DNA of 64,000 nucleotides from the NCBI RefSeq assembly GCF_036014195.1, contig NZ_CP107918.1, positions 3,596,001 through 3,660,000 of the forward strand, written 5' to 3'. This stretch comes from Streptomyces sp. NBC_00442. Its GTDB lineage: Bacteria; Actinomycetota; Actinomycetes; Streptomycetales; Streptomycetaceae. Each line of letters begins with the position of its first letter. The stretch's first letter is position 1. Below, in pieces: positions 33,051 to 40,274 of the stretch. The notes below the pieces were generated by a model that worked only from the letters and a program-made list of their open reading frames with translations, did not search any database and was not told the DNA's origin. Position numbers and translations under genes: made by a program.

Positions 33051-33670
33051 GACCGGTCGGCATCGCCCCCAGGTGGTGTCCCGAGGCGGTTGTCCCCAGT
33101 CGCCGGGGCGCCTCGGCAGCCGGTCCTACCTGCTGATTTTCGTTGTCCACAAAGTTATCCACAGGCTCGGTTCTCGACCTGTGGGTAAGTCGACAACACA
33201 ACCGGACACAGTCGACAAATCCCTCTAGTGACGACACATCGGTCCACAGGCCGCCAGGACATCCTCTGTCACCCCAATTCCGTTGATCAACTCTTTAGAG
33301 CGAGCAATTCCCACCCGAATGAGTGTGTGAAACGGGTTTGAGAGGGGAATCCTCGGCCCCGCACGCGGCTTTCGGAATGATCTCCTCCGCAGTCCACAGA
33401 TCTCCCACACAGCCTGTGGATAAGTTTCCGTACGCGTCCACCTCTGTGGACAAGTCCCGCGCAAGTGCGGTGCGCGGCAAGGGAGTCGGTCAACGGCCGT
33501 CCCGGAAACGCCTCTTTTCAGGGAATAGCGTCGCTTTCCTTGACAGTCGCTCAGGAAATGCAAGGGTCAGCCTTCCCAATTCGGTCAATCTGGACAAAGC
33601 GCCACGCTGTCGGGGCGCGCGGGGGATATACCGGTGGGGTGGCAGGAGTCTGCACCGGTAGCCTGGAGGG
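33051..33670. promoter_or_regulatory. pheA-serS intergenic region with DnaA-box cluster and serS leader
   Basis: 620 bases without a gene and AT-richer than its surroundings. Perfect DnaA boxes lie at 33143-33151 (TTGTCCACA), 33155-33163 (TTATCCACA), 33415-33423 and 33445-33453 (both reverse). Degenerate ones lie at 33180-33188 (reverse), 33240-33248 and 33390-33398. The right third probably carries the serS promoter (TTGACA at 33540-33545); the serS ribosome site is GGAGGG just before its GTG. Confidence 0.8.
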
Positions 33671-39377: not shown

Positions 39378-40160
39378 ATGCCATCCGAAGTCGCTCTACT
39401 CGAATCGCGCACGCTGCGCGCCGACCATCTGGGGCGCGTCGACGTCCTGGAGAAAGTCAGGGCGTTGCAGGTGCTACCCGATGGAATCCATTTGTCCACA
39501 GAGGCCGTCGCCAGGTACTTCGATGTACCCACAGAGGCCCTCAACAGCGTCGTCAAGCGCCACCGCGACGAACTGCACACCAACGGGATGCGCACCCTTA
39601 AGGGTTCTGAGCTGCAAGTCTTTGAAATGGCCAACTTGGCCATTTCAAACGACGGCCGCCCTTCGAGTTATCCACAGGGCCGGGCGCACCTCCGGCTCTT
39701 CACCCGCCGCGCCGTCCTCAACGTAGCCATGCTCCTTCGCGACAGCGAAGTAGCCCGCTGTGTGCGCACCTACCTCCTCGACACCGAGGAGGCCCCCCGC
39801 ACCGTCATCGCGAGCGATCCTCGCTACGACGGCCTGGACCTGCGGGTCAGCAACCTGGAGACCTCCATGGCCCAGATCGGGCCCGCGCTCCAGGAGCTCG
39901 GTCCGGTGCTCAACCGGATGTCGGTGCGGCTGGAGTCGCTGGATCACCGGATGACTGTGATGGACCACCGCATGGAGGCGATGGACCGTCGCCTGGAAGC
40001 GGTGGATCGCCGCGTCGCATCCCTGGACCGGCGCCTGGATGCCACGAACCACGTCGTCGGGGCCATGAGCGTCCGGCTCACGGATCTCACCGAGGACGTC
40101 GCCGACATCCAGCGGCGCCTCCCCCACCCCCCGCACCCGCGCCGCAAGCGCCGGAAGTAA
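39378..40160 (+). CDS. HTH/antirepressor-like protein with C-terminal coiled coil
   Basis: 260 aa from ATG 39378. The N-terminal part (about 20-60) has a helix-turn-helix-like segment (LSTEAVARYFDVPTEALNSV, then KRHRDELHTNGMRTLKG). A middle segment LRLFTRRAVLNVAMLLRDSEVARCVRTYLL recalls phage-type Bro/ORF6N/antirepressor-like proteins. The C-terminal third contains five uninterrupted heptads of the form hDxRhxx (about 190-225), a strong coiled coil, then a basic PRRKRRK end. It probably binds DNA as an oligomer. Its own coding DNA contains two perfect DnaA boxes, a 12-base palindrome and a perfect 29-base palindrome. I cannot name the family. Codon bias is weaker around 39480-39680, suggesting constraint on the DNA itself. 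Confidence 0.78.
   Translation: MPSEVALLESRTLRADHLGRVDVLEKVRALQVLPDGIHLSTEAVARYFDVPTEALNSVVKRHRDELHTNGMRTLKGSELQVFEMANLAISNDGRPSSYPQGRAHLRLFTRRAVLNVAMLLRDSEVARCVRTYLLDTEEAPRTVIASDPRYDGLDLRVSNLETSMAQIGPALQELGPVLNRMSVRLESLDHRMTVMDHRMEAMDRRLEAVDRRVASLDRRLDATNHVVGAMSVRLTDLTEDVADIQRRLPHPPHPRRKRRK
39594..39605. repeat. Perfect 12-base palindrome ACCCTTAAGGGT
   Basis: Intragenic, 15 bases upstream of the 29-base palindrome, in the same coding sequence. Confidence 0.8.
39621..39649. repeat. Perfect 29-base palindrome within a coding sequence
   Basis: Arms TTTGAAATGGCCAA (39621-39634) and TTGGCCATTTCAAA (39636-39649) are exact inverted copies around a single C. It encodes FEMANLAIS in the HTH/coiled-coil gene. 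It is AT-rich against a background of more than 70% GC. Confidence 0.95.
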
Positions 40161-40213: not shown

Positions 40214-40239
40214 GTGCACAACAGACGTGCACAACAGAC
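40214..40239. repeat. Tandem duplication of GTGCACAACAGAC
   Basis: Two exact 13-base copies, directly abutting, between the HTH/coiled-coil gene and the terminator hairpin. Each begins with the palindrome GTGCAC. Confidence 0.85.
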
Positions 40240-40274
40240 GGTGCCCGGCGACGCGTTGACGTCGCCGGGCACCG
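40239..40274. terminator. Perfect 15-base stem hairpin, bidirectional terminator
   Basis: CGGTGCCCGGCGACG (40239-40253) and CGTCGCCGGGCACCG (40260-40274) with loop CGTTGA separate the converging HTH/coiled-coil gene and ABC permease gene. Confidence 0.88.

Follow-up and report, generated by a model that had tools for sequence, protein, structure and literature searches.

The DNA analysed here, referred to as the window, is a stretch of 64,000 nucleotides from Streptomyces sp. NBC_00442 (contig NZ_CP107918.1), and all coordinates are window positions. It carries a plus-strand gene for a protein of 260 amino acids, in whose coding sequence lies a long palindrome accompanied by several shorter elements. 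The features are as follows:

39378..40160, plus strand: gene, 260 aa, with a helix-turn-helix (HTH) or diverged ORF6N-like N-terminal domain followed by a long C-terminal coiled coil (ORF, Pfam, AlphaFold)
39492..39500, plus strand: second perfect DnaA box TTGTCCACA, within the gene (motif match)
39531..39581, plus strand: predicted recognition helix, codons 52-68, with residues 53, 56, 57 and 60 covarying with the half-site (mutual information, AlphaFold, sister contrasts)
39603..39614, plus strand: conserved DNA motif GGCKCTGASCTG (in the window GGTTCTGAGCTG), codons 76-79, upstream of the palindrome (class-32 genes, defined below)
39621..39649, no strand assigned: palindrome centred on 39635, with half-site GGCCAT at +3..+8; proposed as operator for the gene's own protein (inverted-repeat scan)
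39666..39677, plus strand: AGTTATCCACAG with the perfect DnaA box TTATCCACA (39668-39676), beginning 33 nt past the palindrome centre (class-32 conservation)
39819..40118, plus strand: coiled coil, codons 148-247 (AlphaFold; domain searches of relatives)

The palindrome reads TTTGAAATGGCCAA C TTGGCCATTTCAAA, a 29-bp element in which two 14-nt arms, 100% complementary, flank a single central base, just as the first-pass annotation had described it. Translated, it supplies residues 82-91 (FEMANLAISN) of the protein. The GC content of its arms is 36% vs 71% for the whole window, and at the base composition of the window perfect odd palindromes with 14-nt arms are expected 0.0024 times per 64 kb and 0.29 times per 7.7-Mb genome, which bears out the earlier view that so AT-rich a palindrome is very unlikely to arise by chance. 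With up to three mismatches allowed, neither a second copy of the 29-mer nor a further match to the central 19-mer was found in the organism's own 7.7-Mb genome; the site is unique there, and a repeated genome-wide landmark was ruled out. Two other symmetrical sequences were seen nearby: a perfect 12-bp palindrome, ACCCTTAAGGGT, noticed by eye shortly upstream at 39594-39605, and an inverted repeat with 15-nt arms and a 6-nt loop downstream of the gene (40239-40274), possibly a terminator between convergent genes.

The AlphaFold model of the window protein contains helices at residues 41-48, 52-68 and 148-247 and is of low confidence as a whole (pTM 0.32), with a pLDDT of about 70 in the HTH block formed by the first two helices and below 50 over residues 78-107, the region into which the palindrome-coded stretch falls. 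Kinship with ORF6N is weakly suggested by sequence: the Pfam ORF6N profile (PF10543) scores 17.3 bits against the window protein, below its gathering cut-off of 27.8, and 22.5 bits against the relative L106, and profile alignment to canonical ORF6N (hhalign) gives E 3e-4 and a probability of 39.8 over 49 columns, those of the HTH among them. The Rha family (PF09669) gave one sub-threshold match. Domain search returned no ANT match in the window protein, which has the coiled coil instead, while some other family members carry Mrr_cat nuclease or KilAC/ANT domains in its place. The three relatives tested for this (L106, L108 and L112) combine the same DNA-binding module with a C-terminal Mrr_cat restriction endonuclease domain, and the phage relative MooMoo possesses an ANT domain. 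NCBIfam yielded only coiled-coil-type matches for the window protein, all below cut-off, and none for the relatives searched. A sequence search for relatives in the PDB was set aside, the matches listed being confined to the coiled-coil half of the protein.

Homologues are encoded in 61 of 150 genomes of the same genus and in 143 of 392 genomes of an overlapping set. When 29 homologues and a further 80 named loci, the latter from a second collection whose genomes overlap with the first, were aligned, the arms were found to vary among species and yet mostly to stay inverted copies of each other (for example CCATAGCGACA...TGTCGCTATGG, CCATAGGGACA...TGTCCCTATGG and GAAAGGTCCAACTTGGACCTTTC). After exclusion of L134, in which no frame was found, the merged set holds 199 unique genes, nearly all from Streptomyces. 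They were sorted by how far the palindrome centre lies past the point where the Gly76 codon starts: 32 nt in class 32 (144 genes), 20 nt in class 20 (48 genes) and other positions in the remaining seven. A palindrome score of at least 8 is reached by 167/199 homologues vs 223/3,980 synonymous resamplings, and 151 of the 199 outscore all 20 of their own resamplings; 32 score below 8, L086 has no convincing palindrome at the corresponding place and no DnaA box, and the palindromes of L084 and L087 are weak. Expected frequency and synonymous resampling together rule out a chance palindrome. Nor do the homologues keep the peptide while letting synonymous positions of the arms vary freely; the opposite was seen, the peptide changing and the palindrome being kept.

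The bases of the arms follow the amino acids of the predicted recognition helix of the same gene. Written as helix and half-site, representative pairs are VRRLTDRH-GTCGCT, VKKVTQRH-GTCCCT, IRQLxARH-GTCACT/G, VKSLxKRH-GGACCT and VEKLAERH-GTCGGT, next to LNSVVKRH-GGCCAT in the window; class 20 obeys the same logic (IKSLVKDH-GGACCT, IRALVxDH-GCAACT). Residues 53, 56, 57 and 60 track bases +4 to +7, and their spacing of i, i+3, i+4 and i+7 places them on a single face of the predicted helix. The helix tables comprise 194 genes, five of the 199 with other centres having been left out, and the information test 189 of these. In class 32 (141 genes, Neff 32), ranking the residues by the mean of their mutual information with +4..+8 puts 57, 56, 60 and 53 in the first four places. 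Analysed apart, class 20 (48 genes, Neff 14.5) has residues 60 and 53 as its top two and residue 56 in sixth place, and its three strongest pairs after correction are 53/+6, 57/+4 and 56/+7. Information shared with the arms is likewise seen at residues beyond the helix (18, 67, 103, 104, 139 and 140), and is partly phylogenetic.

Several of the assignments are close to deterministic. Lysine, arginine or glutamine at residue 57 goes with TC at +4+5 in 229/230 arms, lysine or arginine at residue 56 with C at +7 in 309/312, glutamate at residue 56 with G in 28/28, and aspartate at residue 60 with G at +6 in 84/84. Other residues are ambiguous, alanine at 57 occurring with CA, TC or TA and serine at 57 with GA, GC, AG or AC. 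Gene pairs with at least 80% identity outside helix and site have identical sites in 427/522 cases when their key residues are equal vs 711/2,126 when these differ. Sister pairs, chosen greedily on a midpoint-rooted FastTree tree of the residues outside helix and site, lead in the same direction. At residue 57 they provide 28 contrasts, in which exchanges among K, R and Q keep TC at +4/+5 (9/9) and other exchanges change the site (19/19, or 18/18 when L133, a contrast with an unreliable helix, is dropped). At residue 56 there are 30, and C is retained in all 16 K/R exchanges; the base is changed in eight and kept in six of the remaining 14, and G and C are exchanged in all three contrasts between E and K or R.

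What the locus contains, at the level of sequence, is a conserved intragenic palindrome whose arms covary with the predicted recognition helix of the same gene. Long, covarying complementary arms could also be those of a hairpin in the mRNA, as the first-pass annotation had offered among its options, or in an antisense RNA. This explanation is highly improbable on the details of the arms. The mismatches among them (123 of 1,746 arm pairs) consist of 22 G·U on the sense strand, 35 A·C, which are G·U when read on the opposite strand, and 66 others, so that neither an excess of G·U on the sense strand nor any wobble tolerance is evident; base +1, beside the centre, is paired in just 51%, and the loops would be of 1-3 nt. 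A hairpin would moreover leave the coupling to the recognition helix unexplained.

We consider it very probable that the palindrome serves as operator for the product of the gene in which it lies, binding being read from the covariation, and the earlier suggestion that it is the protein's own binding site gains strong support from that coupling. A dimer would contact each half-site through residues 53, 56, 57 and 60 of the HTH recognition helix, and a change in the helix would be matched by a change in both arms. As the putative operator lies inside the region coding for the DNA-binding domain, reader and address would travel together. The likeliest consequence would be negative autoregulation, with RNA polymerase blocked about 250 nt into the gene; judged by the position of the site alone, such autoregulation through an intragenic operator is probable.

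Relatives of the window protein are also found in phages. In the phages examined, those of Gordonia and Mycobacterium phages are annotated as antirepressors, those of Paenibacillus phages as restriction endonuclease, transcriptional regulator or antirepressor, and those of streptococcal satellite phages as CiaB. A repressor, Cro/XRE or excise gene adjoins the relative in 8 of the 12 phage regions examined. The phage set contains 104 unique genes, namely 102 viral or phage genes together with L130 and L131 from bacterial genomes; 69 of them score at least 8 and 35 lower, and 43 outscore all the control windows taken from the locus concerned, 61 not doing so. The recognition code trained on Streptomyces was transferred to the 58 non-redundant genes among the 69, the 35 weaker genes being excluded; rarely seen residues were skipped, leaving 49, 42 and 51 rows, and sites with an even centre were shifted by one base by choice. 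Residue 57 predicted +4+5 correctly in 33/49 (permuted mean 12.4, maximum 22), residue 56 predicted +7 in 32/42 (permuted mean 14.9, maximum 25), and residue 60 predicted +6 in 33/51 (permuted mean 19.9, maximum 29.5). All three scores exceed each of 5,000 permutations, and the prediction at residue 57 fails in both arms for 14 of the 49 genes. In three phage genomes no close second copy of the long site was found: Powerball has no other copy with up to two mismatches (the next are at three and four), Finkle none with up to four (the next is at five), and Javan313 none with up to five. With a shorter 17-bp core, Finkle has three additional sites at two mismatches.

Canonical ORF6N genes display a corresponding arrangement. 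At nine ORF6N loci belonging to other classes of the same phylum a palindrome occurs at the corresponding codon, scoring at least 8 in eight of them, and four of the nine also contain a control window that scores equally or higher; one such site, CGTTTGAGGTCACAAACTGTGACCTCAAACG, encodes LRSQTVTSN. In an enlarged set (48 viral loci and further genomes), 56/65 unique genes score at least 8 and 9/65 below, 32 beat all control windows and 33 do not, and synonymous resampling gave 36/1,300 vs 55/65 observed. The helices align such that ORF6N residue 29 equals window residue 57, and this residue specifies base +4 throughout the genes that score at least 8 and have an odd centre and an ungapped helix, both arms of each gene being counted: Q with T in 58/58 arms, E with C in 28/28, K/R with G in 22/22 and T with C in 2/2 (mutual information 1.49 bits, permuted maximum 0.44). 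In four named plasmid ORF6N genes from Bacteroidota, Campylobacterota and Spirochaetota, a sample of 4 of 10 matches, the best palindrome of the whole locus lies inside the domain, that of L442 leading narrowly (9.5 vs 9). The ORF6N model is good (pTM 0.76, recognition helix 24-33), and in it the palindrome-coded stretch forms the end of helix 48-58 and the next loop; a fold search with this model found no solved structure at E of 0.001 or less, the best being a human Ski-like domain (E 0.28). Among Bro-N genes, 11/13 score at least 8 vs 28/116 control windows, and 8/13 score at least 10 vs 14/520 resamplings. Several of them (among L427-L439) have strong intragenic palindromes, that of L435 being perfect over 35 bp. 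Among the titles listed from an open-access library, whose silence does not prove novelty, none describes an operator within ORF6N or Bro-N genes, and "ORF6N domain" and "palindrome" occur together in no paper of that library. Compared by sequence, the chromosomes of Streptomyces, phages and satellite phages, and the canonical ORF6N genes as well, all display the same geometry.

In the subfamily of the window, the palindrome has a companion. The box TTATCCACA is found downstream of it in 134 of the 144 class-32 genes, and the codons that spell it are rare ones: AGT is kept in 125/144 genes (63/849 Ser codons elsewhere in these genes), TAT in 136/144 (53/403 Tyr) and CCA in 140/144 (38/316 Pro). 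The DnaA box adjoining the palindrome is conserved at the DNA level in this subfamily; the box at 39668 is the one that the conservation test covered. At the motif GGCKCTGASCTG, codon 77 is TCT in 61/144 class-32 genes and in only 5/849 Ser codons elsewhere in their aligned part. The spacing from palindrome centre to box is 21 (39 genes), 24 (2), 30 (18), 33 (70), 34 (1) or 42 nt (4), so 131 of the 134 genes have 21, 30, 33 or 42 nt; these values are compatible with whole helical turns in roughly one-turn steps, independent changes being few. None of the 48 class-20 genes has an exact box within 120 nt, and the box therefore seems to have been added within one lineage. The gene itself lies 82 kb from dnaA. 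In 31 genomes, 30 of them hand-picked among genomes with matches, mostly for few contigs, plus the organism's own, the distance from dnaA is 26-117 kb for the 32 genes present: 15 of them are found between -74 and -117 kb, another 15 between +26 and +35 kb, and single ones at -36 kb and +84 kb. Two of the matches (G402 and G442) are weak or partial. Streptomyces oriC is known to be surrounded by the DnaA-box clusters D78, H24 and H69. The window has a cluster of its own at 33143-33453, with TTGTCCACA at 33143 and TTATCCACA at 33155 on the plus strand, two boxes on the minus strand (33415 and 33445) and near matches; it sits between pheA-like and serS-like genes, recognised by eye from their translations, and is possibly the known D78 cluster.

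Taken by themselves, the conserved box, its stepwise spacing and the distances to dnaA would suit an accessory replication element, that is, an initiator-like protein with its site in its own gene working together with DnaA near oriC. We regard this as unlikely, given that class 20 has no exact box within 120 nt, that the organism's genome holds no second site copy with up to three mismatches (the repeat scan of the gene covered inverted repeats only), that the spacing evidence comes from few independent changes, and that the neighbours of the phage relatives in 8 of 12 regions are the repressor, Cro/XRE or excise genes named above and not replication genes. Of the earlier notion of a replication landmark, the nearness to oriC and the conserved DnaA box hold, and the lack of an exact box in class 20 speaks against it. 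It is less likely still that the locus is a site of DnaA titration or sequestration near oriC at which the palindrome merely aids DnaA assembly. Such a site could account for the conserved box, the position near dnaA and the further cluster at 33143-33453, but conservation of the palindrome extends to class 20, where the box is missing, and to relatives from phages and plasmids, and the partner with which it codes is the helix of the protein from the same gene and not DnaA. Under the operator reading, the protein of the window's subfamily would probably sit beside DnaA on the neighbouring conserved box, and gene expression, DnaA occupancy near oriC, or both may be coupled; the evidence here is weaker than that for the operator itself.

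By analogy, the closest known kinds would be phage antirepressors and initiators with internal origins. The window protein resembles ORF6N (PF10543) in its aligned HTH and in the place of the palindrome, and it resembles phage antirepressors (PHROG anti-repressor Ant) in that its phage relatives are mostly annotated so; it differs from both in falling under the Pfam cut-off, in having a coiled coil instead of KilAC/ANT, in its position near oriC and in the DnaA box. Initiators with the origin inside their own gene include lambda O, P1 RepL and those of RepA_N plasmids, whose rep genes carry multi-iteron origins. They share with the present family a cognate site within the coding sequence and coevolution of site and protein, whereas here there is one palindrome at a nearly fixed codon in a domain with several C-terminal partners. 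The D78, H24 and H69 clusters likewise consist of origin-proximal DnaA boxes; the box here is perfect, conserved and intragenic, with a palindrome next to it. Autoregulators such as lambda Cro and toxin-antitoxin systems usually have their operator in the promoter; the window protein may similarly bind a palindrome controlling its own gene, but in most family members examined the putative operator is inside the region coding for the DNA-binding domain.

It is reasonably probable that ORF6N, its relatives in Streptomyces and phages and some or all of Bro-N form one superfamily of mobile DNA-binding domains that are "reader plus address" cassettes, in which the sequence coding for the domain would also hold the palindrome to which the domain binds. 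The codon at which the palindrome stands would be nearly fixed, peptides of the signature type L(R/K)SQxxTS would be translated operators, site and helix would coevolve by a simple code, and autoregulation would be kept through domain shuffles, one Streptomyces lineage having undergone domestication beside a DnaA box in the oriC region. A few hundred related genes of bacteria and phages contain a site of this kind at the corresponding place, and their DNA-binding specificity would then be readable from the gene itself. If this is true, the genes of many little-characterised regulators in phages and bacteria would directly reveal their DNA-binding specificity, a large set of related helix-site pairs would provide a natural recognition code, the apparent conservation of the ORF6N signature would be explained, and a route would be given by which mobile DNA-binding domains retain their regulation on moving. 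As for Streptomyces, attention is drawn to a DnaA-linked locus that is conserved in the neighbourhood of oriC.
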